From positions 1 to 45,228 of the IMG/VR virus record IMGVR_UViG_3300044645_000552: DNA of 45,228 bases; one strand, written 5' to 3'. The position numbers and the translations under genes are program-made. Below the pieces are notes generated by a model. The model was not told the origin of the DNA, made no database searches, and saw nothing but the letters and a program-made list of their open reading frames with translations. Below, one piece after another: positions 187-45,176 of this stretch. Numbering within the stretch: position 1 is the stretch's first letter; each line of letters opens with the position of its first letter. Source of the stretch: a virus.

Positions 187-3100
187 TTATCTATTCTCTT
201 TTTGAATGGTGATGTCGTATTCTTTAGCAAACTCAGCATCCAGAATTGCTGCGTATGTAAGAGCAGACTTTGTAACAGGAAGCATCTTGAACAAATATTT
301 TGTTGGAAGAGCCTTCTTTCTAGCCTCATCATCAGTGGTTTCTGAATCAAAGTCCATGCCTGTCACCTCTGTTCCTAAATGTGAAGTGAACCTGATCATG
401 TCAGATGTCAGTCCCATAGCTGGGAACATGCTACCGCTTAATAACTTTTGAAACTCAAGAGGATTGTAGAAGAATGAAAGCTCTCCGATGAACTTATCAA
501 CCACCTTTTGAGCATATCTGTGGGCATTTTTTGTAGCCCTATCAGCATCATCGTCATCATCAGGAGCCATAAATCCAAGAGCAAGCATTGAGCCAAGCAT
601 ACTTGTGAGGATCAAAAGTTCCTTCATCTGATTACGAAGATTGGTTCTAATGAGATCCATGAAGTCTTCTCTTGTCATGTTCAGAGTTTCACCTGTCTCA
701 CTTTCATACTTCTCACGAAACTCCTCAAACATCTTATCTAGAGCCTCAATACCAGCATCGTTCATAGCAATGATGTTGTTCAGGTCTCTAGCTCCTTTGA
801 TGATTCCTTTACCAAGAACACTGAACAGCAAACGAATTCTACCAATGTCATATTTCTCTCCAGATATCTCACCTGTAGCATCGTCAATCATCACTGAGAA
901 ATCATCTGAGATTTTTCTAAACTCTGAGAAACGTGTATCCAGAAGCTTGGGAATCCAGTTCTTAAATACCATCATAGATTTTGTCCAGATGGACATGGAC
1001 ATTCTATTAACATCCCCATCAGACAAACCTCCCGTAGCATTTCTAGAAATTCTTCTAGTGAGCTCTGTAAGACGCTGAAGCTCATCCCTATTTGTCAAAT
1101 CAAGACCAGGAATAACAAGCTCACCGTTCTCAAGTTTCTTAATAGCATCTATAGATTTGGTTTTCTTCAACTCCTCCACCTCATTTTCGATAGCCTGTTT
1201 AGCATCTCTATAGGCAGCACCAGACTTGAATCTATCTTTATACTTACTCTTTACATGTTCTCTGATACTAACAATTTTACCATCTACTACCATCATGTTC
1301 TGAAGAAGAGACAGGAATATTGACTTCTCAATAAGCTGTTCTGGTACTCTCATGAAAACCATAAGGGTGTCTGCCAAGCTTCCTCTAGTGAGCTTTGACA
1401 TCCCTGCTTTGTTGTATTGCTCATAAGAAGGGTCATCCTTGAGAGGCATGAATGTATTTACAAGTTGAGCAAACGTTTCTTTATCCTGCTCATTCTCAAA
1501 CTTTTGAAGAGTTAGCTTAGCCTCATTCTTTGCAAACTCTCTAGCCTTGAAATAGTTGCCAGCCTGTGTAGCCACCTGGATGTTACCACCAAACATGTTG
1601 ACAGCTCCAGAGATGAACTCAAATCCCAGGGTTTTTAACTGGAATCCTCTATTAGCAGCTTCGATACTTTTTACAAGAGATGTGGGGTTTCCCTCATTCT
1701 CTTTCCAAATCTCTTTACCAGCCACCTGGTTTACGCTCTTTCTTACAAAGTTCAACACCTTTCCTATGTACAGAGGAGTATCAGAATCTGAAAGAACGTA
1801 CTTCTGATCATACAAAAGTGTTCTTAAGAACTCATCAAACATCTTTGAGTTCTCTTCATTGCCAGGAAGCTCTTCCAATTTTCCATCTTTTCTAACAACG
1901 TCTGATGTACGATTGGTAGCTAGGTGTCCTTTGAACTCTTCAATTGTCTTAACAAGTTTCAGCTGACCCTCAACCTCTGTCATGTATTTATACTTGTTCA
2001 CATGCTGAATGTAAAGGATCATGTTCTTGAACAAGTCTTCACTCACCTCAGAATAGTCATTTGTACCATCCTCCTTGCGAGTGAAATCATATGTAAAGTA
2101 TTTGGGAATGCTATTCTCAAGCTCCCCAGTCACCTCATTAATCTTGCCATATCCAGCATCCTCAACACGAAGACTCAGACTTTCAGCAAAGTTCTTCATG
2201 GGAGAAAGTGTGTTATCCCATGCAAGCTCCTCAGCCATACTCTTTCTAATGAATGGCAGGAAGGTTTTTGCCACAGCGTTCTGGATATAACCAACCTCGT
2301 TAGACTTCTCATTAAACTTAACAATAAAGTTGTAAAGCTCTAACAAGTCTGGATCAGCCAACACCTCTTTATATTCCTTGGAATACCACTTAGACTGAGG
2401 ATGTCTTTTGATGATATAGTTATTAAATCCGTTGAAGTCTTCTCTATCAATATCCCAAAGACGTTTAGCCTGGAGGATATATTTGTCTCTCTGTTCTTGC
2501 TCTTCTTCAGCAGTTCCAGGATAACGATTCTTATTAATCTTATCAATCTGGCTTTCTAGCTTTTTCTTAGCTTCTTTTCTGTAAGCCTCAATATCAATGT
2601 TGTTTTTGAGCCAGTCAATATCTCCCCCAGCAGTAGCTAGCTCATCCACCTTATCATGAAACTCTCTGCTATACTTATAGATCAGTTTATTTATAAGACC
2701 ACCTTTATCATCTTTCTGGTATATCTTCTGAACAAATCTTCTAACATCTCCACCCTTCTTCACAATCTTTTCTCTAATCTTCATCAGCTCTTCTACTTCC
2801 TTAAGAGCATCTTGAGAAGCCTTTCCTTGTGCAGCTCTTGTGAGTTTGTACAGCACCTGCAGAGCTTTAAGAGGAAGTTCAGACACACCTCTAAATGTAG
2901 ATGCCAGTCCTTTTACAACTGCCTCAGCTTTTGTAAGACCAGCAACCAAGTTTCTCTGACCGATGTGCTTATCAGCAAAGTCTTTAGACGCTTGCTTAAT
3001 AATTTGTTGAGATTCAAAAATTGCATCAGACTCACTTCTAAGTTTGTCAAGCACATCTCTTCTTTGTTCAGCAGCCTCTACCTCTTCTTCTGTCTTAGCA

Positions 3101-5208
3101 TCTCTCATCATCTCATTAGTATAGATGAGACTACCGATCTCCCTACCAATGTTTGTAAACACCTCAGAGAACTTGATGTAGCTATTCATCTCTTCTGCAA
3201 AGTCAGAAAGCTCACTGTTTGTAGAGTCTTTTGATGTAGCAGGTCTGTCCTTATAGCTAGTGTTATAATCCTCAACAAGACGGTCACCTTCCTTACGCAT
3301 CACCTCTATCACATCAATAAGAGGAGCAATGTTCATTGTCCCCTGAGCATATCGAATAGCAGTTCTCAGCTTGTTAAGACGCTCCACCTTAAACTCACGC
3401 TCTTCATCAGTGGTAGCTTCTTGCTTGCTATATTGTCTAAGTAATCCATTGAGCTTAGCAATCACCTTATCTAAAGCAGCATATCCTGTAGACTCACTTT
3501 CCTCAGATACAGGAACCAAACGAAGGTCTTCAATCTCACTTTTATTAACAGATCCAATAGCAATCCCTCCCAACACAAACTCTGAGTTGGGATCTTTTGG
3601 ATCTTCTTTTTTGAACTCCATGGAGATAGGAATTGCTCTAATCATTCCAAACTCCTTGATTCCATATTGCTGACGAAGGATGTCCTTATATGTACCAAGC
3701 TGTATATTAAATGCTCCTTGCTTAAACCATGCCACATCATCACCAGAAATGTTCATGAATTTCCAGTCAAGAATGTGAGCCTTACCACCAGGTTCAATAG
3801 CCAGAAAGTCAATTGTACCAGCTTCTTTATTCTTGGGATCGTAAATAATTCTTTCAGACAAAATCAATGTTCCATCAGGGAATGTTGCAATTAAGTCTGT
3901 ATAATACTTCTCCAGCTTATCATACATCTGTTGGCTGGGAAGATTAATCTGTGAAGGTCTAGACAGAGGATTCACTCGTTTAGTACCATCAGGATTGTAA
4001 TATCTATTGTGGATTTCCTCAAAGTCAGCGTGTCCCTCAATACCATATGTTCTCTTGAGCTCATTGAACTTCTTCTCCTGCTCAGTAAACACCTTACCAC
4101 CAAATCTGTTTTTGTACCAAGCTTTAACACGATCTGTTACTCTCTTGAGCACTCTCTCAACCTGTCCATTAGGAAGTTTAATCTGATAGAAGTTATTAGC
4201 CTCTTCAGAATCCAAAAGAGCTGGGTCTGCAGATTTTGTTTTTTCAACTACCTTGTCAATATTATTCTTAGTCTGTTCAAGTTTCTCTAGTACAACTTTC
4301 TGAGCATCAGTGATTTGTAAGTAGATATCTTTCTCTACAATATCATTCACTGTACCAAAAGACTCCTCACCTGTAATCTTTATAGCAGCCTCCTGGAATA
4401 TATTGATTCCAGAATTCTTATAAGATAGTCCCAAAGCATTAAGAATCTTATTCCAGATTCTTCTGAATAGAGACTGGTTTTCCTCTTGAGCAAGTTCTGG
4501 AAATTCTTCTGATCCCTCGTTCTGATTAATAATTATCTCAGCAATCAGTTTATCAGCAGCCTCTTTCTTAATCTTACGGATGTCAGGCTTACCATTAATC
4601 TGATAGTAGGGATTGTTCTTATACTGCTCAAATGTCTCCTTGTAAATCTTGAAGTTTCCAATCTTGGAAATCATCTCGGTTACAAGAGCTGGGTTGGTTT
4701 GCTCCAGAATAGCTGTAGCAATGTGTACCATTTCCTCTGTGAGAGCAACGTTCTCTTTACCCTCAGCTACAGCAATTACACCACGTACCAAATCTGCCAC
4801 ACCATTAATTGATGTAACATCCATGCCAGATGACTTGGCATATTCAGAAAGACTTTTAATAGACACTCCCATTTTCTCCAAAGCTCTCTTCACCTTAGCA
4901 ATAGTTTCTGGAGAAGCTGCTGTAGGAATAGGACCTGTTTCTACTTGGAGGAGTGGTAAGTTTTTAATGTAGTGATTGTAATACGCCTGAACAAGCTGAT
5001 CTGAAGGATCAATAAAGAAAGATCCTTGCTCACCCTCTTTTATAATAGGAGCTTTGAACTCTTTATTAAGGGCATTGATGACAGAGGTTGATTTGTTAGG
5101 ATTACGGAAGTATCCAATGTCCCCATCCACAAAAGCACCATTCTCTCTCAGTTTATCACCGACAGTATCAATAATGTCCTTTCTTATATCGAGTGCACAT
5201 TTGCTCAT
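187..5208 (-). CDS. Large virion cargo protein with embedded PD-(D/E)XK nuclease domain
   Basis: This 1,673-aa protein starts on a TAATG overlap with the RNA polymerase gene, implying coupled translation and coproduction. Around residues 440-520 it carries a RecB/Cas4-type nuclease signature: D467 in GTIDFLA, D481-W-K483 in ILDWKF, and Q503-xxx-Y507. Residues 145-260 resemble the zincin-like region of phage polyvalent proteins (LTEEMVH around H162, then an acidic and helical tail), but the HExxH motif is not intact. Most of the rest is charged, helical and coiled-coil-like. Near the C terminus is a hydrophobic stretch (LLILTSMLGSMLALGFMAP) followed by a DDDDD run. Large proteins next to the RNA polymerase in crAss-like phages are virion cargo, so I infer that this one is packaged and ejected. 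The nuclease may act on host or competitor DNA or in genome handling. The role is inferred; the motif is seen. Confidence 0.8.
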   Translation of the reverse strand: MSKCALDIRKDIIDTVGDKLRENGAFVDGDIGYFRNPNKSTSVINALNKEFKAPIIKEGEQGSFFIDPSDQLVQAYYNHYIKNLPLLQVETGPIPTAASPETIAKVKRALEKMGVSIKSLSEYAKSSGMDVTSINGVADLVRGVIAVAEGKENVALTEEMVHIATAILEQTNPALVTEMISKIGNFKIYKETFEQYKNNPYYQINGKPDIRKIKKEAADKLIAEIIINQNEGSEEFPELAQEENQSLFRRIWNKILNALGLSYKNSGINIFQEAAIKITGEESFGTVNDIVEKDIYLQITDAQKVVLEKLEQTKNNIDKVVEKTKSADPALLDSEEANNFYQIKLPNGQVERVLKRVTDRVKAWYKNRFGGKVFTEQEKKFNELKRTYGIEGHADFEEIHNRYYNPDGTKRVNPLSRPSQINLPSQQMYDKLEKYYTDLIATFPDGTLILSERIIYDPKNKEAGTIDFLAIEPGGKAHILDWKFMNISGDDVAWFKQGAFNIQLGTYKDILRQQYGIKEFGMIRAIPISMEFKKEDPKDPNSEFVLGGIAIGSVNKSEIEDLRLVPVSEESESTGYAALDKVIAKLNGLLRQYSKQEATTDEEREFKVERLNKLRTAIRYAQGTMNIAPLIDVIEVMRKEGDRLVEDYNTSYKDRPATSKDSTNSELSDFAEEMNSYIKFSEVFTNIGREIGSLIYTNEMMRDAKTEEEVEAAEQRRDVLDKLRSESDAIFESQQIIKQASKDFADKHIGQRNLVAGLTKAEAVVKGLASTFRGVSELPLKALQVLYKLTRAAQGKASQDALKEVEELMKIREKIVKKGGDVRRFVQKIYQKDDKGGLINKLIYKYSREFHDKVDELATAGGDIDWLKNNIDIEAYRKEAKKKLESQIDKINKNRYPGTAEEEQEQRDKYILQAKRLWDIDREDFNGFNNYIIKRHPQSKWYSKEYKEVLADPDLLELYNFIVKFNEKSNEVGYIQNAVAKTFLPFIRKSMAEELAWDNTLSPMKNFAESLSLRVEDAGYGKINEVTGELENSIPKYFTYDFTRKEDGTNDYSEVSEDLFKNMILYIQHVNKYKYMTEVEGQLKLVKTIEEFKGHLATNRTSDVVRKDGKLEELPGNEENSKMFDEFLRTLLYDQKYVLSDSDTPLYIGKVLNFVRKSVNQVAGKEIWKENEGNPTSLVKSIEAANRGFQLKTLGFEFISGAVNMFGGNIQVATQAGNYFKAREFAKNEAKLTLQKFENEQDKETFAQLVNTFMPLKDDPSYEQYNKAGMSKLTRGSLADTLMVFMRVPEQLIEKSIFLSLLQNMMVVDGKIVSIREHVKSKYKDRFKSGAAYRDAKQAIENEVEELKKTKSIDAIKKLENGELVIPGLDLTNRDELQRLTELTRRISRNATGGLSDGDVNRMSMSIWTKSMMVFKNWIPKLLDTRFSEFRKISDDFSVMIDDATGEISGEKYDIGRIRLLFSVLGKGIIKGARDLNNIIAMNDAGIEALDKMFEEFREKYESETGETLNMTREDFMDLIRTNLRNQMKELLILTSMLGSMLALGFMAPDDDDDADRATKNAHRYAQKVVDKFIGELSFFYNPLEFQKLLSGSMFPAMGLTSDMIRFTSHLGTEVTGMDFDSETTDDEARKKALPTKYLFKMLPVTKSALTYAAILDAEFAKEYDITIQKENR

Positions 5209-8200
5209 TATCCGCAGCTATTTTGGTTGTTGTCATTAATTGCAGGGAGTCCATCAGGCTGAATTTGACTGGGTTGTCCAGGTGCTTCATCAGTCTCATC
5301 CTGTTCAATCTCTTTTGTAAAGAATGGCAGGATTGCTTGGTCAGCCACCTCATCTACTTGCATAAATCCATTGTCTATCACAGACTTTCTACCATCAGTG
5401 TAGAACTCATTAGCTCTGAATCCATCACCCCAAGCATTGATGGGTTTGTATATAAAGGACTGACGAGCTTCTCCATCAATCACATAATCTTCTGTCAAAG
5501 GATCACCATAATTATCAAGCACCTTCTTGAATAATCCCTTCTTGATGTAAGAGTAATCACCAGCTTTCTTCTTTGCTTCCTTCTCCTTTTTAGTCCCTTC
5601 CTCCCAAGAATATACAAGCACATCACCACTAGCCTCTCTAGCTAATGTAGAAAGCTTCAGAAGCTTTGGAATATCACCTTTGTTCATAGCAGCTTGCAGA
5701 TCTCTGTTTCTACCAAAGTACATGTTGGTGTTATATCTGTTCTTTCCTTTGCTATCTTTTCTCCACTGAGCTTTTCTGGTGGGAACAATATCATCATTAT
5801 TCCAGTTATTCCTTTCAAAGGCATTTAGTCTCAGGAAATCCTCCAGAGCAAACTTACCATTTTTCTCCAATTTAGCCAAGGTTTGATTGTACATTTCCTT
5901 GAAATCACTATAAGGAAGAAGGTTAGTGAAGGCTATCGGAGAGTTGGAAAGACCAGACTGAAGCACAGAAGCCCTAACCAGTTTCTCATAAAGCTGAGGT
6001 TTGCCAAGCACCTTCAGGTATCCTTTCAGCTCATCAAAGGCATATATGAGTTGGTTCTGATCATACACCTTATTATCCTTGTTCTTAATCTGGATGTTGT
6101 TCACCCCATTCTTCTTATCACTAAACTTGGGGTTGAACAGCTTAACTACCTGATTATTATACAGAGGATGGGCAGGATTCTTTCTAACACCATTTATGAA
6201 TGTAGCCATTTCTTTAGCTGCACTCTTAGTATCAGACAATAGAGTTTCCTCGATAAGCTTATTGATCTCTTTATCATTCTGAACAGCCCAGTCAAATACA
6301 TCAGAAACCACCTTCTGGGAAATCTTGATGAAGTCTCTGTCTGGAAGATTTACGTATTTATCAACAATGGTCTCAACCAATTTTCTCATTCTTCCAGAGT
6401 CAGATTTCAGGATTGTGGCATATGCATTTCTGATGTCATTAATTCTTTTAGCCAGCTCACCAACAAAAGAACTTTCCAGCAACTTATCTGCAGAAGAAAT
6501 AATTGACTTCTGAGCATTCTGCAATTGTCTCATCTTCTTGAATACCAAGAAAGGATCGTTGAAGGATGCTGTGTCAAAATTAGTTCCCTGTGTAACCTTC
6601 AGAAGATGACTAGCCATCTTGCTGTATTTCAGAAACTCATCCAGAATAAACTGCTGTTGTGCTCTTTGTTCAGGTGTAAGTTTCTCATTTCCAATCATTT
6701 GCAACAACGCTGTGTCTCCAGGAATCTCAGTCACCTTAGCCAATTGTCCCTCTGTAACACGATATTTCATAGAGGTCTTCATGTCACCTACCAACTCTTC
6801 ATTAAATAACCAGGTAGATCCACTGTTCTCAATTTCACGTAGGAAGTCACGGACAATTGGTTGGTTCATGAAATAGGCTACAGTCTCAATAGGTACACCT
6901 AGTTTAGCTAAGAACAGCCATGTACCAGCCACATTAGGAGTGGCACCAAGCTCCATAATCCAAGGACCCTTGGAGATATCCACATATCCATCGATGAACT
7001 GACCGATGATATCTGAAATATCCTGACCATCAGGGAACTGCTCGCTTCTCTCAGCATTCTTAATCATGGAGAGTGTAGCATATGTTTTATCCCCAATCTG
7101 AATACGATTGTAGTTCTTGAACTTAACGCTAGCATCCTTCAGCCACTTAGCATCCTGTTTACTGATGAATGCAAGCATTGCTGGATCAACATATATAGGA
7201 GAACGCTGGCTGAGAGAGTGGTTGGTCTGGTTTACAGCAGCAATACCAATTGCATACTTACCAGAAACAAACGAATGTCTCAGTCTAGTCATGAAGTCTC
7301 TACTAAGCATGTTACCAGCTGCCTTATAGTCAAACTTGGTCATGCCCAGCTTCTTCACAATCTTATCAGACAGATCTTTCATCTGCTGAGCAGAGTTGGG
7401 AGCAATGAGTCTGCTGAAGTTCCTAGGATGGGAAACTAGGTCTTGACCAGACTGAATGTATTGATTCTCAAGAGATTTTCTATACAATCCATTAACAATT
7501 GCCTCTCTAAACTCAGGCTTGTTTTTGACAATAGTTGATATATAATCCTTAGTTACAGACTCATCAAAAGCTGTTCCAAGGATAGATTGCATAAGTCTTG
7601 AGGAGGCATCATCTCCAAATTTAGAATTCTCTTCTTCAATAATTCTATCAAGCTCTTGCATTTGAGACTCTGTAAGGAATTCACCCTTATCAAACATCTC
7701 AGCAAACTTCTGTTTAGCCTCTTCACCAATTCCAAAATAAGGAATCAGTTTGGTGTTACCTCTACCATCTTTATAGACATTCTTCAAATAGATGAAGAGT
7801 TTGTCAATATCAAAGTCAGATCCAGCTTTCTTAACCAGCTCAGAAGGGATGATTACACTATCACCATATTCCTTAGGAAGGAACTTGGTGATTACAAATG
7901 AATCAATAGAGTTCTGTTTCTGTGTAGGAATACGGAAAGCCATACCAGACAGGATCTTTTTACCCTCGTCTGTTTTGAAATATTCAATAAGCTCCTCATC
8001 GGTCTTATCACTTTCAAACCATCTAGCCACCATGATTTCAGCAACACGCTCACCATCTTTGTTCACATAAAACTTGAGATGATCAGATGCATATCCTTCT
8101 TTACCATTGATTTCTGTACGCTCAGCTCTTACAGACTCAAGCAAAGAAGAGGGCAGCTGAACCTTCTGACCACCATTGATCTTGGGAGAAATCACTTCTC

Positions 8201-11200
8201 TATCTGCAATAGAGTAGAGAATGTTTCTCACTTGCTGGTAGGCAGGAGTAGCTTCCAGAACAACATCACCATTTTCAAATCCTGTGAGAGCCTCACTGAT
8301 GTTGTCATTCATCTCTCTTTTCAACATCTCCTCACGAAGAGTATCAGCAACCTTTTTGAAGTCAGCTATCTCGAATGCTTTCTCATCACCTTTAATTACC
8401 TCTTTGATGCCAAATTGCTTCAGAAGTTGTTGATAACCAACTTTCATCATCTCCTCAAGGAGATCTTGGTTATTTCTAATTTCTGCATATAGAGGAGAGT
8501 CGATCTTCTTTTGTGCTTCAGAAGGTATAGCATACCAAGCTTCCATTCTCTTGTTAAAGTCCTTAACAACGTTTCCAGACTTATCTTTAAGCTCAAAGTC
8601 AACAGGAACACCAGCTTCCATGTAATCCATGGTGATCAGCTTAGTTACCTGAGATCCTCTGGTTACTTGGTTATCTTCTTTAGAAGGCACCTCAGCCTGT
8701 ACGCTCATGATGGCAAAAGGAACATTTGTAATTCCTTCAGCATCAAACTCAGCGGTCATGAACTCACCCTTCTTATTATATACATCGTAACTCTTACGAG
8801 CTCCCACCTTTCTAGCAGTGTTGTACACAGCATAGTCAATCTTCTCAGCTCTCATTTTATCGTAGAGCTTGATAGCATTTGACTCAGGGTTCATCTGATG
8901 TAACACTCTGAAAGACAATGGATAAAGAGCAAACTTATCCAGCATCACATCATTGTAATTGTTACCATCAGCTTTGTTACCAGATACAATAGGCTTCAAA
9001 GGAGTGTAAGCACTGTTGATACTAGGGTTGTTCTTAAAGAAGGCTTTGATAGTTTTCTCATCAGCACCACTCTTTACAAGCTTCTCAAACTCCATGTCAA
9101 ACTTGTACTGCTCTTCCTCTTTATCATTCCACTCACCAGCACGCAGTCTAAAGTTTCTGTAAGCCTGGAGTGTAATCATCCCAGCACCATCGGTCTCATC
9201 CCATGTACCATATCCAGGAAGATCACTAAGTCCTTGAATATCATTCAGTGATACAGTTCTGAAATAGTCTTTATCAAAGTCAGTGTATCCAGGATCTGTA
9301 GTGTCAAAACCTTTGTTATAGGTTTTGTTCATTGCAGAGTTGAAGGCAGAAGAACCACTCATGATTGCCTGTCTTGGGGACAGGAAGTTCTTAATACGCT
9401 TCAGCTCATCAGAGTATTGATAAGGATCAGAATAGAGCACCTTGTGAAGCTCAATGTTATTAATCATGTAATTGATAGTGAGTCTCTTCAATTCCATGTT
9501 AATCTCATCATTGCCAACATTAGTGGTCTTTTCAAATCCAAGATTGTTCAGATCGTAACCATCCATCAGGTTACCATTGTCATCTGTAGATCTTTCTATA
9601 ATTCTATAGTTCTCAAGGGTTTGTCTAAACTTAGCAGTCTCATCATTGATGAACTTCTCAACAGCTGAGTTAACAGCTCTTTGAATAGAAGGATCATTAA
9701 CAATTTCCTCAGCACTGCGCTTATCTTTCAGGATTTTATTCTGCAGATCTTCTCCCAGAATAGCCTTCATGAATCTAAGCTCATTCTTATTTCTACCTTT
9801 TGCTACAGTGCGAGTTTCATCTTTAGCCAAGTTGATCTCATCGATCAGGTAGCCCTTGAATATATTGAGTGTATCGGTGAGACCAGATGTAAGAGATTTC
9901 TCAGAAATGGCGTTACCCATGTACATCATCCATTCCAGAGATGCATCACCAGGAACCAGGTTCAGGTAGTAACCATTGATATTCAAGTTGATTTCCTGAA
10001 TCAAACGATCTCTGTAAGAAAGCTTAGAAGATTCTTTCTTCTTTCCAGTTTGCTGGTTTATCAAACCATCAGCATATGCTGTCTTTAGAAACTTCTCAGC
10101 ACCCTCAATCTTCTTACCAGTCTGAAGATCGAACATCTTGCCAAGAATAACAGAGTTCTTAGCAAACGTGTCTGTTGTCAGGTATTCATATTGAGTACCA
10201 GCGAGTTCTGAAAGATTATCAATATCAATCAATACATCATACAAATCACTCGCAGCGTTGGTTCCAATGAATGTCTGTGTGCGTTCACCATTAACATTGA
10301 AATATGTACTGCTGAACTCAGGATTGTCAAGCTTAGCCTGAATCTCAGCCAGCTCACGCAATCTACCAGATATCTTCAAAAGCTTATAACCAACTGTAGC
10401 AATCTGCTCAGCTTTGTTAATGCTGTCAGCAATACCATCAACAGCTGTATTAAATTGCTTCAAATCCTTCGGACTAAGAGAAAGCTTAACATCATTTACA
10501 TCAAACTCAATTCCAAGAGTTTGCAGAAACTTCACTCTTCCCTCAGGGGTTGCTTGATAACCACTCAGTGCACCACGTTTACCAACGTACACTTTCTTAT
10601 CAGTATCATATTCAAAATAAGGATTCTTATTTTTAAGAATGTCTCTGATGCTGTTGATATAATCTTCTCTCAACTGGTTGGTAGCTGTAGTGAAGTTGGA
10701 ATCACCTACAACAACATCCCCATTATCCAGAATGTAAACATTCTTCACATCAGGGTTCTGCTTCTTGAAGGACTTCCAGAATGCTGTCAGCAGTCGAACA
10801 TCATGCATATCTGTCAAGCTAGTTGTCAGATTTGCCTTAACGTTGATGTTCTTATTTTTGGTGAGACGAGTGTAGAGAGCCTGGTAGTTAGCATCCTCAA
10901 GTGCCATCTGACGAATGATTTCCATCATGTCATCAATGTTACGAGCACTGTGAGCTCTATTGAGGATAGCCATGTACACCTCTGTAGCAGGCATCAACTT
11001 TACACCATTGATGGAAGAAGGGATAGTTTCCAGAGTTCCATCAACAAGTCTTCTTGTAACAGGAATAGTAGAAAGCAGGAGCTTAATTGCACCATTAGCT
11101 TTCTTGAAGTTATCTATCTTGGTAGCATCCTGCCAATCGTATTTCTTAGAAGCATCCTGATCTCTAAGCTGAACATTATCATTTTCATCAAACTCAATGC

Positions 11201-14200
11201 TGTAGCTCTTCAGTTGTTCCTCATGCTTTTTAGTAATCTCATCCCATTGGTCATTGACGCTCTTCCAAAGTGTGAGGGCTTCTTTGGTCTTTCTCTTAGC
11301 TTGCTCCTCAGAGATTTCTCCGCTAGCCAAAGCATCTTGAGCAGCTCCAGCTTTCTGAGCAATAGCTGACATCACCTCCTCCTTAAGCATTGGATAGATT
11401 TCACTCTTTTTCAAATCCAATGCCTGGAATAAACCTTGATTTGTTTCAATCAGCTTTCTCAAAGTGACATATGTCATGTGCTGAATAATGTCACCAATGT
11501 TCTCACCTCTCATATTCTTGAGGCGGAACTCAGCATCATCAGATATGATAGCCTCCTCAATATCCTGAAGACCCACCTTAGCAAAGGCAAGCTTGGAATG
11601 ATAGGGAGAATATGTCTTATAATATCCTGTGCCAATCTTTTCAAAAAGCTTCTCAGTGTTGTTTTTTGCAGATTTGCCAGTAAAGAAAGACTTAATAAAG
11701 TTTACCAGATCAGAGAATAGCTTAACGATAAACGGTCTTCCATCAGCAGGTTTAGCTGGAACCTTACCATCTTTTACATAATCTCTGAACTCTTCAGCCA
11801 GTTGTTCTTTAATCTGCTGACGAGTAGCTTCAGAGTATTTAACTGTTTCTCCTGTAGGTCTATCTACAAAAGTTCCTTTTCTATTCTTAAACTCATTGAT
11901 GATGGCTGTTTGTTCAGCATCATCTGTGAACATCTTCCACACAGCCTCAAATACCTCGTGGTAGATTGTACCCACCTCAGCATTCTCATAGACATAGATA
12001 GCTCCATCTTGAAGCATACCCCATGCCTGAACACCATTTGTGTTCTGAAGAATATTCTTAACTCTGTATACAGGAATGTTGGGGAAGTTAGCCTTTAACC
12101 AAGACTGCACCTTGTTCCAATCCTCACCCTCAAACTTCTCAAGTTCTTCCTTAAGTCTAACACGAAGAACTGTTCTGTCAGGAGCAGATGTAGCTTGCTT
12201 GCTGAACAACTTCATTTGTTCAGGAGTGATATCATCTTCTACAAGATCTTCTACAGCCTCTTCTATATCACCCACAGTTGCTTCAAATTCACTCTGAGCT
12301 TGTTGAGCTTGATATTCAGAAAGTGCTGGAGTGAGAGTTTTAATTATATTTCCTCTGATGATTTTCTTAGCATCTTCTTCTGTAGCCCCAGTGTCCATTA
12401 TAGCCTGAAGAGCTTCTTTAACATCTCCTTCTTTCAGGACAGTGAGTCCTTTAGGATCGTTCTGCAAAAGTTTATCACCATCAGCAAAGAAGACAATCTT
12501 CAATCCAGACTTAGATGTATAAGTGTTCTTCTTCTTTCCAGAAAGATCATATTCAACTTTCTCAGCAGCAGGAGCTTCAGCAGGCTTAGCTGCTGTAGGA
12601 GCACCAGGCTTAATCACTGTAGCTTTCTTGGTAGCCTTTATCTCAGGAATTGTAAAGCTCTGAGCTGTTTCAGGCACCATGAAATATATACCCTCTCTGT
12701 TCACATCACTAGGAACTGTGAGAGGTCTAATCTGTGTTGTAAGGGGAATCTGTTTAGCATCTCTTTGTTTTCCATCAGGATCAACCTTGGATAACAAGAA
12801 AGATTGGTAGTTCTTCCATGTTCTGGAAGTCACCTCACCAGAGTCAGAGATAGATGTAATTTCCTCATAGGGCTCATTCCAATCAAGCTTCTGTCCACCT
12901 TTTACCATTGTGGCATTTACATTATTGTACATGCCAGACAGAATGGTTTTGAGCATAGACTCATTCTCTCTAATTGAACTAGGTGTAAACTGAATGCTTT
13001 CACCTTTTCCAGAGAGGAACAATCTTGGCTCAGAGAACATACCATCTACATCAACACGATCAAACCAGATGCTGTTATAGCCAGAGTTATTTTTAGGAGT
13101 GCCCCAGTATACAACAGACTTCAGCCAGTTGATTACACGCTTGGCTTCTGTAGATTGTAAATTACCATCTCTATATACAATGTCAGCCAGGGTTTTAACT
13201 GCCTGATAAACTGTATTCACTTCATTCTCAGTGAGTTGTCTGTTCTGAAGCTTTACATATCCTGTTGGAGTTTCAAGGAACGGTAAACCTTTCGGATCAT
13301 TATATACAGTAGATCCTTTCTCAATAGATTTTTCCACTGTAGGAATAATGATCACCTGATCAGTTCTAAGATCATCACTAGTGATTAATCCAGAATCTTC
13401 TACAGCAACCGCAGCATTCTTCACCCTAACATCATTACCATTCTGATCTTTGGTAGTTACATATTGAGGAACACCAAAAGAGGGTTCTACATTGTGACGA
13501 GTGAGTGTAGGATTCTCAAGAGTGTTAGTTCTCCAGGCTTTGTATTGAGCCTTCAAAGCTTTTACAACCTCATCAGGTGTGCCCTTTCTAAACATGCTCA
13601 CCTTCTTACCAGGAGTCTTGCTCCACTTATCATCCCACTCTAGGTCTTCCAGAGGGAACACCTGATAGATTACACTATTAAGAGGATTAACTTCAGCAAC
13701 AGGCTGACCCATTGCTTCTAGTGTAAGCTCCTGGGTGGTTGGTTCTTTGAATATAGCCTCACCATTCTCGTCTACCAAGAAGAAGTTCTCAGCATTCTCA
13801 GGATCTTGCTCCACCATTACAAGAGCAATAATCTTTGACTTCTCTACGGGAGGTGCTGTAGGATCTGCTTCATCAACAATTCGTTGTGTAAATCCTTCTA
13901 AGCCAAGCTCCACCTCATTCTTCTCAGTTACATATATACCACGAATGTTATCTTTGTTCTTGAGCTTTCCGAAGTTAGCACCAAATCTATTTGCTCTCTC
14001 ACCACCAGAAGCTACTGTAGCACTAACAACCACTCTATCAGACTTCTTACTATCAGCCTCATAGGTGGCACTTGATTGAAGAGTCTGTTGATCATTAGTA
14101 AGTGTGCCAAGAATAGCATTTTGCAACTCAGCATCTTTTCTCATTCTATCTTCTTCAGCAAGCTCTTTCTTATAACGATCAGCTGCCTCTTGGAATCTAC

Positions 14201-17200
14201 TGAGAATCAATGACTTAGCACCAAGTTCTTGACTGATTTCAGACAGAGTGTTCTGAAGACCAGTCATTGCTTCTCTAAGCTCACCAAGTGTACGTTCATT
14301 AGGAACAACATCAAGCTCATCAATTTCAGCAAGCTCTCTGTCAAATTCCATCAAGTCCCTCATCAGGTTTGGATTAGCCTGTATGTAGGACTGGTAATCA
14401 GGCCAAGCACCTCTAAACTCCAAATCTCTATTTAAGAATTGACGAAGACCCTCAGGAGCAATAGGCATTCCTGGGTACTTCTTCTCAAACTTCTCAATAA
14501 GATTTAGTGCATAGTCAACAGCATCTTTTAGAGCCTTGTCAACACTATCCATTAACTTGGACAGACTATTGATATTCTTACCTGTCTCAAGAGTCATGTC
14601 TTCTAAATAAGACACTTGCTCTTTCAACTCTTCAAGAAACTCTTTGCTATCTGTAGGAAGCTCATCAATGTTCTGAGCCATGTCAGAAACATAGGACAAG
14701 TTAAACTCAAGTTCTTCTTTCTGAGCTTCCAGTGCATCAATCTCAAGACGCAAAGATTCTCTCAATCTTGAGAGTTTATTTGCAGCTTTGATTGCTTTAT
14801 TAGTGGCAGATTTAAACGTGTTCTTCTTTGTAAGGTCTCCTGATTTAATTTGCTCTTCCACCTTGGAGAGCTCATCATTCACCTTAGCAAGCTCTTCACG
14901 TTTCTTTGTGATGAGATCTTTTGTACTATCAAGCTGTGTAGAAACTTCGTCAAAGAGGTTACTAAGTATTTTTAATCTACTACCTCTTCTTGAATCTATG
15001 TCTTCTTTTGTTTTTCCAGAAGCTTTTCTTTTTGCAATATCAGCACTGTCCTGTGCTGTAAGAGGATTTCCAAATGTAAATATTCCTTCAGCAAATCCTG
15101 TTTTAGCTTCAAATGAGTCAAGTCCAACTTCTGTTTCTCTGATTTTTCCTTTCTTATCTTTATATACAAAATAAAGTTTACCACCATCGTACACAAGTCT
15201 TCCAGGTATTTTGCCACCTTTACCCTTTCCTGTATTCCAATATACAGGATTGTTCATGTTTCTCATGTAGAAGCTAGCATTTTCATTACTAGCAACAGCA
15301 CTAACCTTGCCTAACTTATAATCAAGCAGGACATCCTTGCTAACATCCTTTACATTACCATTGGAATCCTTTATCTTAATTGTACCATCCTCATTCTCAC
15401 CAAGAATAGTGAGTCTTGGAAAACGATACACTTCTTTACCATTCTTATCATACTCAACAACCTTTCCTAAGAAATACTCAGTGCCAATCTGAATATCCTG
15501 CTCACCAGTTTTGGTTTTTATCTTTACAACCTCTTCAGTTTCACCAACTTCTTCACCTGGTGTTTCACTAAGAACATCATCATATTTCTTAGGGTTTGTC
15601 TTAATATCGTCAAACTCTTCAAGGAAAGACTTCCTACGAAGAGATAGCTCAATTACATCTCCAAGCTTAGTCTTTAAATCATCCTTCACTTCAGATGTTA
15701 CATCAAGACCATTGATCTGTGAGATGGCTGTAGCAGTTGCCTCTTCACTAGGTTTGTTGTTCTTGATTATGGCTGTTAGAATTGAAGCTGTATCAATCCC
15801 ACGATCAGATAAAGGTGAATTCAACTGAGGGATGCGAAGATCATAATTAGCTATCTTTGATGCAGCATATACCATCTTGTCTATAACAAGAGGGGAGTAC
15901 TTTCTACTACCATCTTCATTTATCTCACCAGAATATCTAAGATTAAAAGAGTTGTAGAAGTTATTTATATATTCAGCAGTCTTTTCTAAAGTGTTGATTC
16001 TCTGAATATACTGATCAGAGGTGTCGTTGATATTAGCAAGTCCTTGTTCCTTAAGAGAAGCAAGACCTCCAGCAGTTATTGCTGTTCTTTTTAACTCAGC
16101 CATATCATCCACAACCATATCAAATCTGCCATGCTTAACACGAGATGCCAAATAGTTGTGCATCATATCATGACGAAGATCTCTAGCCTCAAGCTCATCA
16201 CCATTAATTACAGCATCTTGCTCTTGCTGTTGGAGGGCAACACCACGATTAATACTTGCCATCTTATCTTTAAACGCATCCTTAAAAGAAGGTGTTGAGT
16301 TAAGAGTATTTAGAAGCTGTTCTGTATTGCTTTTCTTAGTAGAGCTCTCTTGGTAGATTCCTCTAGCCTGCATCAATCCACCAGTGATACCTCCAAGTAC
16401 CAAGCTCTCCATACCTTCTTTAGAAGCGAAAGCACCTACACCCTTACCTTCCTCATCTCTACCAACAAATCCGTACAGAAATGCATCTGTCCAAATACTA
16501 GCCTCATCTCCCTGCATTCCTTTACTAAAGTAGTTCTGTGTACCTACTTGCAGAGCAAACTGACCAACTTCCTGAGCAGCTTCTTTAGGATCAAAGAAGT
16601 ATCTACCCACTCCAGTAACCTTATCATACAGCTTGCCAAACTTGCTAGTTGTAGCTTTAGCCACATATTTACCACCGTCTAGTGCAATTTCTTCTGTAGC
16701 ACCAACCAAACGGTTTGCTGCATTTTTACTATTCTTGTATGTAGATCCAAGGAGATAGGGAAGTTGTTGGAATTCTGTAGCACCCAATAGAGCCATGTTT
16801 CCAAGGAAGGAGGTGTTACCCACCTTACTTGCCATAGCATCTATCTTCTCAAGTTCCTGACCACTAGGCTCAGCCCCACCATGGTCTAGTTTATATTTCT
16901 CAATTAAATCATTTCTAAATGATGTGGCTGTTTGCAAAGCCTCAAATGATGCTTCACCAGCAGCAGAATATGCAGCCACTGCAAGTTGTCTACCAATATC
17001 TCCAATCTCAGCAAATCTACTTGTCTGTGCAGCAAGTTCCCCAAGCTTAGATGTTCTAGTTGCAATATCTGCAATAGAAGTAATTTCCTTCTCAAGAATT
17101 GCAGCAGCCTCAATATTCTTTGCATTTGAGAAAGCTCTTGCTGTGTTTCTCAAAAGTGGGCTGAAAAGTTTGAATGCCTCAGCAGACTCTGCACCAGCAG

Positions 17201-17852
17201 CCAATCCTCTACCTATTAGAGAACCTGCTTTCAAAAAACCAGCATTTGCAATGTTACCACTTACCATGGCACCAACAGCAAAGCCAGAGTTTTTGATCAA
17301 CTTATCAAAAAGAAAGTTTGCAGTGAACCAGTTATCTGTAGAATACCAAGCAGAGTTCTTCTCAATATTTGTGTAGTAGTTAGGGAGGTATGTCTGATCC
17401 ACCTCAGTGTTCCATTCATCAAGTCCCTTCATTACATCATTTGAATAGATGTCAGAGAAACTACCACCAGTTGCCCATTTACCTACACCATATAACATAC
17501 CAAAGCTACCAGCAACAGTGGTAGCAGCAAGATTCACACCCTTTAATATACCATTTGTAGCCTTGTCCCAGTTTGACTGAGCATTGGCTTTCTGGTCTTC
17601 AATATCCAAAATCCCAGCAGAATACACATCATATCTCCTGTTTGCATACAACTCACCAGAACTTATGGTGGGAAGCATAGCAGATTTGACAGGACCAGAT
17701 CCAAAAATAGGGTCTGCCTCTCTTCCTCCAGAAAGTCCGTTTACACCAGGTCTACTTAGTCTGGGCACAGGTGTTGCAGGATTATCCAAAGAAGGAAGTT
17801 CCTGGTTTGTGTTAAGTAGAACAGGGTTTAAATTTTGATCAAAATCTGGCAT
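5208..17852 (-). CDS. Giant crAss-like virion RNA polymerase (single-chain, DFDID catalytic motif)
   Basis: An uninterrupted 4,214-codon gene. The catalytic metal-binding motif of two-barrel RNA polymerases is present as D3346-F-D3348-I-D3350 in GSDFDIDK. It is preceded by FRIPTQKQNSID, which corresponds to the R-x-P-T ... S segment of the beta-prime barrel. An upstream segment with K3015 (NTARKVG) and R3065-GSQVTKL is the likely first barrel. Single-chain polymerases of this kind (phi14:2 gp66, YonO) are known, and in crAss-like phages they are packaged and transcribe early genes after ejection. The N-terminal 100-260 residues contain Gly/Ala-rich amphipathic segments. Residues about 780-930 look like SH3-type beta barrels, 950-1130 form a long coiled coil, and about 1735-1760 is an Ala/Pro/Lys linker. 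A zincin-like segment lies at about 1930-2060 (H1965-E-V-F-E1969, second His lost). The length suggests that proteins separate in some relatives are fused here. The start lies 8 bases after the 868-aa gene. Confidence 0.92.
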   Translation of the reverse strand: MPDFDQNLNPVLLNTNQELPSLDNPATPVPRLSRPGVNGLSGGREADPIFGSGPVKSAMLPTISSGELYANRRYDVYSAGILDIEDQKANAQSNWDKATNGILKGVNLAATTVAGSFGMLYGVGKWATGGSFSDIYSNDVMKGLDEWNTEVDQTYLPNYYTNIEKNSAWYSTDNWFTANFLFDKLIKNSGFAVGAMVSGNIANAGFLKAGSLIGRGLAAGAESAEAFKLFSPLLRNTARAFSNAKNIEAAAILEKEITSIADIATRTSKLGELAAQTSRFAEIGDIGRQLAVAAYSAAGEASFEALQTATSFRNDLIEKYKLDHGGAEPSGQELEKIDAMASKVGNTSFLGNMALLGATEFQQLPYLLGSTYKNSKNAANRLVGATEEIALDGGKYVAKATTSKFGKLYDKVTGVGRYFFDPKEAAQEVGQFALQVGTQNYFSKGMQGDEASIWTDAFLYGFVGRDEEGKGVGAFASKEGMESLVLGGITGGLMQARGIYQESSTKKSNTEQLLNTLNSTPSFKDAFKDKMASINRGVALQQQEQDAVINGDELEARDLRHDMMHNYLASRVKHGRFDMVVDDMAELKRTAITAGGLASLKEQGLANINDTSDQYIQRINTLEKTAEYINNFYNSFNLRYSGEINEDGSRKYSPLVIDKMVYAASKIANYDLRIPQLNSPLSDRGIDTASILTAIIKNNKPSEEATATAISQINGLDVTSEVKDDLKTKLGDVIELSLRRKSFLEEFDDIKTNPKKYDDVLSETPGEEVGETEEVVKIKTKTGEQDIQIGTEYFLGKVVEYDKNGKEVYRFPRLTILGENEDGTIKIKDSNGNVKDVSKDVLLDYKLGKVSAVASNENASFYMRNMNNPVYWNTGKGKGGKIPGRLVYDGGKLYFVYKDKKGKIRETEVGLDSFEAKTGFAEGIFTFGNPLTAQDSADIAKRKASGKTKEDIDSRRGSRLKILSNLFDEVSTQLDSTKDLITKKREELAKVNDELSKVEEQIKSGDLTKKNTFKSATNKAIKAANKLSRLRESLRLEIDALEAQKEELEFNLSYVSDMAQNIDELPTDSKEFLEELKEQVSYLEDMTLETGKNINSLSKLMDSVDKALKDAVDYALNLIEKFEKKYPGMPIAPEGLRQFLNRDLEFRGAWPDYQSYIQANPNLMRDLMEFDRELAEIDELDVVPNERTLGELREAMTGLQNTLSEISQELGAKSLILSRFQEAADRYKKELAEEDRMRKDAELQNAILGTLTNDQQTLQSSATYEADSKKSDRVVVSATVASGGERANRFGANFGKLKNKDNIRGIYVTEKNEVELGLEGFTQRIVDEADPTAPPVEKSKIIALVMVEQDPENAENFFLVDENGEAIFKEPTTQELTLEAMGQPVAEVNPLNSVIYQVFPLEDLEWDDKWSKTPGKKVSMFRKGTPDEVVKALKAQYKAWRTNTLENPTLTRHNVEPSFGVPQYVTTKDQNGNDVRVKNAAVAVEDSGLITSDDLRTDQVIIIPTVEKSIEKGSTVYNDPKGLPFLETPTGYVKLQNRQLTENEVNTVYQAVKTLADIVYRDGNLQSTEAKRVINWLKSVVYWGTPKNNSGYNSIWFDRVDVDGMFSEPRLFLSGKGESIQFTPSSIRENESMLKTILSGMYNNVNATMVKGGQKLDWNEPYEEITSISDSGEVTSRTWKNYQSFLLSKVDPDGKQRDAKQIPLTTQIRPLTVPSDVNREGIYFMVPETAQSFTIPEIKATKKATVIKPGAPTAAKPAEAPAAEKVEYDLSGKKKNTYTSKSGLKIVFFADGDKLLQNDPKGLTVLKEGDVKEALQAIMDTGATEEDAKKIIRGNIIKTLTPALSEYQAQQAQSEFEATVGDIEEAVEDLVEDDITPEQMKLFSKQATSAPDRTVLRVRLKEELEKFEGEDWNKVQSWLKANFPNIPVYRVKNILQNTNGVQAWGMLQDGAIYVYENAEVGTIYHEVFEAVWKMFTDDAEQTAIINEFKNRKGTFVDRPTGETVKYSEATRQQIKEQLAEEFRDYVKDGKVPAKPADGRPFIVKLFSDLVNFIKSFFTGKSAKNNTEKLFEKIGTGYYKTYSPYHSKLAFAKVGLQDIEEAIISDDAEFRLKNMRGENIGDIIQHMTYVTLRKLIETNQGLFQALDLKKSEIYPMLKEEVMSAIAQKAGAAQDALASGEISEEQAKRKTKEALTLWKSVNDQWDEITKKHEEQLKSYSIEFDENDNVQLRDQDASKKYDWQDATKIDNFKKANGAIKLLLSTIPVTRRLVDGTLETIPSSINGVKLMPATEVYMAILNRAHSARNIDDMMEIIRQMALEDANYQALYTRLTKNKNINVKANLTTSLTDMHDVRLLTAFWKSFKKQNPDVKNVYILDNGDVVVGDSNFTTATNQLREDYINSIRDILKNKNPYFEYDTDKKVYVGKRGALSGYQATPEGRVKFLQTLGIEFDVNDVKLSLSPKDLKQFNTAVDGIADSINKAEQIATVGYKLLKISGRLRELAEIQAKLDNPEFSSTYFNVNGERTQTFIGTNAASDLYDVLIDIDNLSELAGTQYEYLTTDTFAKNSVILGKMFDLQTGKKIEGAEKFLKTAYADGLINQQTGKKKESSKLSYRDRLIQEINLNINGYYLNLVPGDASLEWMMYMGNAISEKSLTSGLTDTLNIFKGYLIDEINLAKDETRTVAKGRNKNELRFMKAILGEDLQNKILKDKRSAEEIVNDPSIQRAVNSAVEKFINDETAKFRQTLENYRIIERSTDDNGNLMDGYDLNNLGFEKTTNVGNDEINMELKRLTINYMINNIELHKVLYSDPYQYSDELKRIKNFLSPRQAIMSGSSAFNSAMNKTYNKGFDTTDPGYTDFDKDYFRTVSLNDIQGLSDLPGYGTWDETDGAGMITLQAYRNFRLRAGEWNDKEEEQYKFDMEFEKLVKSGADEKTIKAFFKNNPSINSAYTPLKPIVSGNKADGNNYNDVMLDKFALYPLSFRVLHQMNPESNAIKLYDKMRAEKIDYAVYNTARKVGARKSYDVYNKKGEFMTAEFDAEGITNVPFAIMSVQAEVPSKEDNQVTRGSQVTKLITMDYMEAGVPVDFELKDKSGNVVKDFNKRMEAWYAIPSEAQKKIDSPLYAEIRNNQDLLEEMMKVGYQQLLKQFGIKEVIKGDEKAFEIADFKKVADTLREEMLKREMNDNISEALTGFENGDVVLEATPAYQQVRNILYSIADREVISPKINGGQKVQLPSSLLESVRAERTEINGKEGYASDHLKFYVNKDGERVAEIMVARWFESDKTDEELIEYFKTDEGKKILSGMAFRIPTQKQNSIDSFVITKFLPKEYGDSVIIPSELVKKAGSDFDIDKLFIYLKNVYKDGRGNTKLIPYFGIGEEAKQKFAEMFDKGEFLTESQMQELDRIIEEENSKFGDDASSRLMQSILGTAFDESVTKDYISTIVKNKPEFREAIVNGLYRKSLENQYIQSGQDLVSHPRNFSRLIAPNSAQQMKDLSDKIVKKLGMTKFDYKAAGNMLSRDFMTRLRHSFVSGKYAIGIAAVNQTNHSLSQRSPIYVDPAMLAFISKQDAKWLKDASVKFKNYNRIQIGDKTYATLSMIKNAERSEQFPDGQDISDIIGQFIDGYVDISKGPWIMELGATPNVAGTWLFLAKLGVPIETVAYFMNQPIVRDFLREIENSGSTWLFNEELVGDMKTSMKYRVTEGQLAKVTEIPGDTALLQMIGNEKLTPEQRAQQQFILDEFLKYSKMASHLLKVTQGTNFDTASFNDPFLVFKKMRQLQNAQKSIISSADKLLESSFVGELAKRINDIRNAYATILKSDSGRMRKLVETIVDKYVNLPDRDFIKISQKVVSDVFDWAVQNDKEINKLIEETLLSDTKSAAKEMATFINGVRKNPAHPLYNNQVVKLFNPKFSDKKNGVNNIQIKNKDNKVYDQNQLIYAFDELKGYLKVLGKPQLYEKLVRASVLQSGLSNSPIAFTNLLPYSDFKEMYNQTLAKLEKNGKFALEDFLRLNAFERNNWNNDDIVPTRKAQWRKDSKGKNRYNTNMYFGRNRDLQAAMNKGDIPKLLKLSTLAREASGDVLVYSWEEGTKKEKEAKKKAGDYSYIKKGLFKKVLDNYGDPLTEDYVIDGEARQSFIYKPINAWGDGFRANEFYTDGRKSVIDNGFMQVDEVADQAILPFFTKEIEQDETDEAPGQPSQIQPDGLPAINDNNQNSCG

Positions 17853-43622: not shown

Positions 43623-45176
43623 TTAGAACTGTGGGATCTCTTCAATCAAGACTGTGCGAGACAGGTCCTCGATGAATACATCACAACGGTCTTTCATCCA
43701 GATCTCGTAACCAGGGAATTTGTTCGCAGAGCTCATACCCTGAGACTTAGCAAAGCCCAAGTGGTGGCGAGTTCCATCGATATATCCCCAAGTCATAGAA
43801 GGTGCACCCTTCATACGAACTTCACGGATGTTGTTAACCAAAGAACCATCAGACATTGGAGACACGTCAAACACCATGAATACAGGGGTAGACTTCTTGT
43901 TCTGTCCAAATTCCAGGTTAGTTTGAGGCAGGTCAAGTTCCTTCAGGTGGATCAGTTCAACACGACCAGTCTCACGAGTAACCATTGCATCGAATGCAAA
44001 GTTGTAAGTGATGTGTTGTCCTTCGCCCTGCAGGTAACGGTTTCCGCTATCAGCCATGAAGGTAAGACCACTGTTCAAAGCGTCATTCTTCAAAGCTTGT
44101 TGGAACACGTCAAAACCAGCTTCGTTTGTATACATTTTAACACGACGATCCTTAACATCAACACGTCTGTAGAACAGGTCTCCAAACACTGAACGAATCA
44201 GGTTAGCAGAGAACTCACCACGGTTGTATTGAACCAGGTTACCGTTGTTACGCATTCTGTGATATACACCAGCAGATGTACGCTTCAGCTCTTGCTTGCT
44301 ACCATGAGTCTTCACAGTACCAGGCTTGCTCCAAATCATACGCTTAACTTTCAACTCAAGCATAGACTTACGCATCCAGAACTCAATAAACGGCTCCCAT
44401 TTAACATCATTACGAGTCAAAGGAAGTTGATTTCTACGCTGAGGAGCATATACCAAGATATCCAGAGGCTTACCAGAAGCATCTCTCATCATCTTGTCAT
44501 CAGCCCACTCAGTGATCTTGTGCTCGAAACCATATGCAGAACCCAAAGATTCAAACATAGTGATCTTCTCACCCAAGCGAGGAAGACCCAGCAGATCCTG
44601 ATCGAATTCACCGATAGCAGCATCAACCAGCTCAAGCTCGATACCAACTTGCAAGAAAGTAGAACTTACGAAATCCACAGTGGGGTTATCGCTCACCAAG
44701 GTGAAGCTATACAGGAAGCCCATGTTCCAAGGAACGGGATCCTTAATAACGTAGAAGCGAGGACCATACTGACGAGAACCAACAGAAACGATAGCGTTCT
44801 TAGAGAACTCGTTGGTATCCAAAACAAGAGAGAACTCTTGACCATCGATACCAGGCTTGCTCAGATTCAGGGTAGAATCAGGAACATTGATGATTTTGGG
44901 GAACTTGTAAGGAACCTGAACTTGCCATTTCCAAGCATCACTATTATTATCGATGTAATAAGGTGTGCTCTTGTTGATCATGTCCAAGAAGTCATTACTG
45001 TACAGTGAGCTCTGAGTGTACAAGGAGATAATCTTCTTGTCATAGTCTGCAGGCTCAGTTGAGTGGAATGATTCCAGGTGGTTAGCGTCGGTCAATTTAC
45101 CTACAGCACGCTTGTCCATAGAGGCTACGCGGGCATAGGTAAAACCAGTTAAACCTGGGATTGTTTGAATTGCCAT
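43623..45176 (-). CDS. Major capsid protein (crAss-like, HK97 fold)
   Basis: A 517-aa protein forming the icosahedral shell. The N terminus (TIPGLTGFTYARVASMDKRA, then SLYTQSSLYSNDFLDMI) and C-terminal segments (MTWGYIDGTRHHLGF ... YEIWMKDRCDVFIEDL) fit the crAss-like MCP pattern, and the length is typical. Its codon choice is richer in C-ending and CGT-type codons than that of the large cargo genes, as expected for the most abundant virion protein. It is the only gene where I see a clear Shine-Dalgarno sequence (AAAGGA, 7 bases before ATG). A structured RNA follows its stop. Portal and terminase would be expected beyond the right edge. Confidence 0.9.
   Translation of the reverse strand: MAIQTIPGLTGFTYARVASMDKRAVGKLTDANHLESFHSTEPADYDKKIISLYTQSSLYSNDFLDMINKSTPYYIDNNSDAWKWQVQVPYKFPKIINVPDSTLNLSKPGIDGQEFSLVLDTNEFSKNAIVSVGSRQYGPRFYVIKDPVPWNMGFLYSFTLVSDNPTVDFVSSTFLQVGIELELVDAAIGEFDQDLLGLPRLGEKITMFESLGSAYGFEHKITEWADDKMMRDASGKPLDILVYAPQRRNQLPLTRNDVKWEPFIEFWMRKSMLELKVKRMIWSKPGTVKTHGSKQELKRTSAGVYHRMRNNGNLVQYNRGEFSANLIRSVFGDLFYRRVDVKDRRVKMYTNEAGFDVFQQALKNDALNSGLTFMADSGNRYLQGEGQHITYNFAFDAMVTRETGRVELIHLKELDLPQTNLEFGQNKKSTPVFMVFDVSPMSDGSLVNNIREVRMKGAPSMTWGYIDGTRHHLGFAKSQGMSSANKFPGYEIWMKDRCDVFIEDLSRTVLIEEIPQF

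Follow-up and report, generated by a model that had tools for sequence, protein, structure and literature searches.

The window, meaning the whole stretch of DNA analysed, was the 45,228-base virus record IMGVR_UViG_3300044645_000552. At one end of it, two large genes adjoined on the minus strand, one for a cargo protein of the crAss001 gp49 type (P0001) and one for a 4,214-amino-acid polypeptide. P0001 was composed of a degenerate zincin-like N-terminal region, a nuclease domain and a long C-terminal region. The features were as follows, with residue numbers referring to P0001:

187–5208, minus strand: gp49-type cargo protein P0001, 1,673 amino acids (family profile against crAss001 gp49, E = 7e-18; cr108_1 gp052 matched over the full length)
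4723–4737, minus strand: degenerate zincin-like EExxH, residues 158–162 (HEIIH at the same place in homologous locus L035 only; zincin fold unconfirmed by fold search)
3574–4167, minus strand: predicted RecB/MGME1-type PD-(D/E)XK nuclease domain, residues 348–545 (AlphaFold2, Foldseek, and Pfam PF12705 in homologues)
4030–4044, minus strand: motif Ia GxxxH, G389–H393 (invariant in 70/70 homologues and in a 32-row alignment including cr108_1)
3853–3855, minus strand: motif I glutamate E452 (invariant in 70/70)
3808–3819, minus strand: motif II GTxD, G464–D467 (G, T and D each in 70/70)
3760–3768, minus strand: motif III D481-W482-K483 (D and K in 70/70; the same D-W-K as MGME1 D251-W252-K253, PMC6237815)
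3688–3702, minus strand: motif IV Q503-xxx-Y507, here Q503-L-G-T-Y507 (70/70)
190–3210, minus strand: C-terminal gp49-like region, residues 667–1673 (family profile aligning crAss001 gp49 and, partly, phi14:2 g065)
5208–17852, minus strand: 4,214-amino-acid polypeptide (blastp matches to crAss001 gp47, crAss001 gp50 and phi14:2 g066)

The 4,214-amino-acid polypeptide contained a gp47-like N-terminal part (residues 75–784), a zincin-like HEVFE site at residue 1965 and the virion RNA polymerase, with the motif DFDID at residue 3346. These three parts were joined in one chain in the window and were separate genes in crAss001; cr4_1 had a giant ORF resembling that of the window. The stop codon of this polymerase ORF and the start codon of P0001 overlapped by one base (TAATG). 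With the DFDID motif in the upstream ORF, this agreed with an earlier note on this DNA, according to which P0001 is translated in overlap with the virion RNA polymerase. The polymerase ORF was immediately upstream of the P0001-like gene in all homologues extending that far, and the P0001-type gene adjoined the virion RNA polymerase gene in the same order in the homologues, crAss001, DAC15 and cr4_1. Virion genes were found further upstream of the 4,214-amino-acid ORF, including that of the major head protein (43623–45176, minus strand; PHROG match, E = 8e-31). The nearest relative of this head protein in the phage collection was that of a cyanophage, Leptolyngbya phage Lbo-JY46 (26% identity). 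A search of the Lbo-JY46 record with the nuclease profile gave no match.

The whole-family profile aligned with crAss001 gp49 in the N- and C-terminal parts and skipped the nuclease, a domain that gp49 did not contain. The genes of P0001 and gp49 each followed their polymerase gene. By profile match and by position beside the polymerase, crAss001 gp49 and phi14:2 g065 were the counterparts of P0001; both are recorded as detected in virions and, unlike P0001, both were without the nuclease domain. In crAss001, gp49 was found in virions by mass spectrometry together with gp47 and gp50 (PMC6235969, PMC10172136). On the evidence of these orthologues, P0001 is predicted to be present in the virion and ejected. 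The description of P0001 as an ejected-type virion protein in the earlier note therefore held for its counterpart gp49 as a detected virion protein, and extends to the window's phage by orthology.

The full window protein gave no significant match to Pfam, PHROGs or PADLOC. In viral contigs, a search with the whole protein found 36 relatives, and one with the profile of the domain found 80 loci. The previously cited residues D467, D481-x-K483 and Q503-xxx-Y507 were located where claimed, and D481-W-K483 was confirmed in the translation, but that motif set had left out H393, the histidine of motif Ia, and E452, the glutamate of motif I. D467, D481, K483 and Q503, for which invariance had been the proposed check, were retained in 70/70 homologues with pairwise identities down to 25%, as were G389, H393, E452, G464, T465 and Y507. 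Only 25 of the 321 columns of this 70-row domain alignment were invariant. In cr108_1, which was approximately 25% identical, E452, D467, D481, K483, Q503 and Y507 were all kept. Among 32 homologues, 12 matched Pfam PDDEXK_1 (PF12705), with a best E-value of 3.7e-5. When the protein was shuffled, 30% of the shuffled sequences contained the loose pattern D...DxK...QxxxY, which was thus not significant alone, and 0.4% contained the full set GxxxH...E...GxD...DxK...QxxxY. Since the residues were conserved in homologues, we accepted the nuclease signature as real, with the D...DxK...QxxxY pattern being insufficient by itself.

An AlphaFold2 model of residues 335–655, built with 70 rows, had a pLDDT of 91 and a pTM of 0.86. 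In this model, residues of about 348–545 have a PD-(D/E)XK core fold. The profile of the nuclease domain matched no nuclease structure by sequence, and the fold search alone succeeded. The best solved matches of Foldseek against the PDB were MGME1 (8xa9, 4.9e-4; also 5zyu) and RecE (3h4r, 1.1e-3), followed by EXO5, the Cas4-family ACE1, AddAB, AdnAB and Cas4, and 72 matches at E ≤ 1e-3, many labelled PD-(D/E)XK, were obtained in the viral structure library. The TM-scores of the Foldseek matches were low (about 0.3–0.5), a counterpoint to the fold assignment. The comparison with Cas4 and AddB folds that had been suggested as a check thus yielded a confident model with matches to the Cas4 family and AddAB, and the assignment to a RecB-like PD-(D/E)XK domain was sustained by the invariant motifs, the Pfam matches of homologues and the fold matches to MGME1, RecE, EXO5, the Cas4 family and AddAB. 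The reading that the motif arose by chance in a structural protein rich in helices would be in keeping with the frequency of the three originally cited motifs in shuffles and with the lack of a significant Pfam match for the window's own sequence. It was refuted by the conservation and fold results, namely the invariance, the PF12705 matches among homologues and the confident fold with its structural matches, and its probability is negligible.

Among the fold matches, human MGME1, a mitochondrial RecB-type exonuclease, shared all five motifs with the window domain, including D-W-K. The corresponding MGME1 residues are H180 (motif Ia), E223 (motif I), D238 (motif II), D251-W252-K253 (motif III) and QhXXY (motif IV) (PMC6237815), and the step from E to D was 15 residues both in MGME1 (E223, D238) and in the window domain (E452, D467). 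MGME1 differs in being a stand-alone enzyme, with an identity of about 13% to the window domain. The Fe-S nucleases Cas4, AddB and EXO5 have the PD-(D/E)XK core and QxxxY in common with the window domain, but the Fe-S cysteines are theirs only. The nuclease domain contained zero cysteines in 70/70 members, and thus the Fe-S cluster of Cas4 and AddB is absent. A Cas4-type Fe-S nuclease was rejected on this ground; the label "Cas4-type" used previously was appropriate for the fold and not for the cluster. The RecE exonuclease is Fe-S-free. The Escherichia coli enzyme is part of a recombination pair.

In 2021, Yutin et al. (PMC7886860) described PDDEXK domains in some crAss-like phages, within the large proteins of the transcription block. 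These domains belong to the same superfamily, gene block and phage order as the window domain. The text of PMC7886860 names neither the residues nor the position; in the present analysis, the domain was assigned to the gp49 counterpart and was intact in 70 viral-contig members. Beyond that report, each genome was found to have a single copy, carried by one or the other of two cargo proteins. The earlier note knew of no described function in crAss-like phages; the domain itself has precedents, in PMC7886860, which assigns it no function, and in cr4_1 gp27, which was annotated "exonuclease" by the depositors. In the literature searched, neither the residues nor the alternation between gp47 and gp49 was described, and no functional test of the cargo nuclease was found.

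In crAss001, the nuclease profile located the domain in residues 1729–1880 of gp47, another virion cargo protein. Carriers of this gp47 type were crAss001, DAC15 (gp078), cr116, cr106, cr85, Dulem 41 and, in its recoded reading, cr124. Carriers of the gp49 type were the window's clade, cr108_1 and cr4_1 (Suoliviridae), where the nuclease was in gp27, directly after the giant polymerase ORF, as in the window. For nine reference phages, whole-record searches with a joint profile detected one copy each, embedded in a cargo protein (the cr4_1 copy, split into two adjacent rows by recoded stops, was counted as one), and for phi14:2 they detected none. A second, weak row of cr108_1 (0.004) fell in its replication-block exonuclease. 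In crAss002, the domain was a free-standing 332-amino-acid gene (gp_4), four genes upstream of the terminase gene gp_8. Exactly one copy was present in 20/20 long viral contigs searched; these had been chosen for holding the protein, so the count speaks for a single copy and not for universality.

The gp47-type copies retained GxD, DxK and QxxxY, except for Dulem 41 with QxxxL. In those inspected, GxxxD stood in place of GxxxH, or this motif was not clear, and the glutamate of motif I was missing. This loss of some motif residues, and the adjacency to the polymerase, would suit a module of the virion polymerase complex that binds DNA but is catalytically dead. In the 70 gp49-type members, down to 25% identity, every residue for metal binding and catalysis was invariant, which makes a dead module very unlikely. 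We consider it probable instead that P0001 is a gp49-type virion cargo protein with a competent, Fe-S-free exonuclease of the RecB/MGME1/RecE type, which would be ejected with the polymerase and act on DNA ends.

The profile of the cargo nuclease matched crAss002 gp_4 with an E-value of about 1e-8 and the same motif set. Against replication-block nucleases, it reached only 0.006 for cr108_1 gp038 and did not score for phi14:2 g046 and cr4_1 gp29. Given these values against that of crAss002 gp_4, an origin from the replication-block exonuclease was not favoured. As support for the domain tree was weak, no direction of transfer between gp47 and gp49 is claimed. crAss002 gp_4 is a PD-(D/E)XK exonuclease of the structural block near the terminase, free-standing in contrast to the cargo-fused window domain, and is presumably the PDDEXK_a of PMC7886860. 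We tentatively propose that one relocatable exonuclease module is maintained in crassviruses and carried in the virion, in gp49-type, gp47-type or free-standing form, and that it may be an undescribed processor or attacker of DNA ends before transcription.

The place of crAss002 gp_4 near the terminase would also be expected of a domain that works in assembly, on packaged ends or branched concatemers near the portal, its presence in virions being a carry-over. The cargo zone of crAss001 is close to the portal vertex (PMC10172136), which is compatible with such a role. In most lineages examined, however, the domain was fused to cargo and not to packaging proteins, and phi14:2 was without it. 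A role in assembly is therefore unlikely.

According to the probable reading of P0001 as an injected end-acting exonuclease, the protein would be carried in the phage head and injected together with the virion RNA polymerase, ahead of the reading of any phage gene. Judged by its family, the nuclease would most likely depend on a divalent metal and act as an exonuclease on DNA whose ends are free or single-stranded. Its substrate may be the phage's own entering linear ends, which would be trimmed or resected before end joining; we regard this target as a serious possibility, somewhat short of an even chance. crAss001 has direct terminal repeats (PMC10136315), and MGME1 is described as acting on DNA ends in PMC11551736. 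We rank the processing of own ends slightly above an attack on the DNA of the host or of rivals. This preference is based on the terminal repeats, on RecE and MGME1 acting on DNA ends, on the crAss002 relative near the terminase, and on circular host DNA being without ends. As counterpoints, the replication block of crassviruses codes for another PDDEXK nuclease, which could process ends after expression, and the gp47-type copies have motif Ia His replaced by Asp, lack the motif I Glu and, in Dulem 41, have QxxxL. Since phi14:2 has no copy, the nuclease function is not indispensable in all crassviruses. A target other than the phage's own ends, host, rival or defence-made DNA, or packaging appears improbable.

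Alternatively, the target of the injected nuclease at the start of infection could be DNA of the host or of rivals, as raised in the earlier note, or DNA that host defences make; the nuclease would then be an effector of a polyvalent protein. Polyvalent proteins have an injected multi-domain architecture (PMC5512222). In the account of Iyer et al. 2017 (PMC5512222), they are very large and delivered with the DNA. Zincin-like and ART-PolyVal domains were present in relatives of P0001. The concept fits because cr4_1 gp27 (L128, 8204–13615, TAG-recoded) combines ART-PolyVal above the Pfam cut-off, an apparent zincin motif HEILH, at a position similar to the EExxH of P0001, and the PD-(D/E)XK nuclease in one chain. 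Delivery before gene expression, as expected from the orthologues, and the long, variable N-terminal extensions of some relatives would also agree with an attack. On the other hand, a lone RecB/MGME1-type exonuclease is expected to need ends or single strands, which intact circular host DNA does not offer, and the nuclease itself was not variable within the clade. No publication describing the breakdown of host DNA by crassviruses came up in a non-exhaustive literature search. Given the polyvalent architecture, an attack on host, rival or defence-made DNA is only a little less probable than the processing of own ends.

In P0001, the nuclease was the sole clearly intact effector domain, unlike in polyvalent proteins, and ART-PolyVal was not seen in a Pfam scan of the window protein. 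The zincin-like site was degenerate. The sequence of the N-terminal region suggests a zincin; its model had low confidence (pLDDT 68) and no structural match, which left a zincin fold unsupported. With EExxH rather than HExxH and no structural match from this low-confidence model, a zincin-like metallopeptidase is not claimed for this region.

Crassviruses are among the most abundant human gut viruses, and a 2023 review describes the role of their PDDEXK nucleases as unclear. An intact exonuclease that entered together with the virion polymerase would act before any phage gene product, and its task would have to be either the preparation of the incoming genome or an attack on a target in the host. 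This is directly testable with the exact active-site residues, the cultured crAss001, which has the domain in gp47, and phi14:2, which is naturally without it.

The P0001-like open frame was approximately 450–550 amino acids longer upstream than that of the window in L024, L002, L003, L006, L011, L026 and L030. These extensions had no significant Pfam match where scanned; L011 gave a weak match to ART-PolyVal (0.046). In L031 (1551–7842), the P0001 homologue was divided over two overlapping frames near the C-terminus, which indicates a frameshift or an assembly error. The polymerase ORFs of L017 (1–5988) and L022 (1–6087) had an insertion of about 240 amino acids just past DFDID, between the equivalents of window polymerase residues 3379 and 3458. 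In cr108_1 (L037, 7904–19494), the polymerase was divided at the DxDxD region over gp054 and gp053, which were about 290 bases apart; the catalytic motif is probably interrupted by an intron or another insertion.
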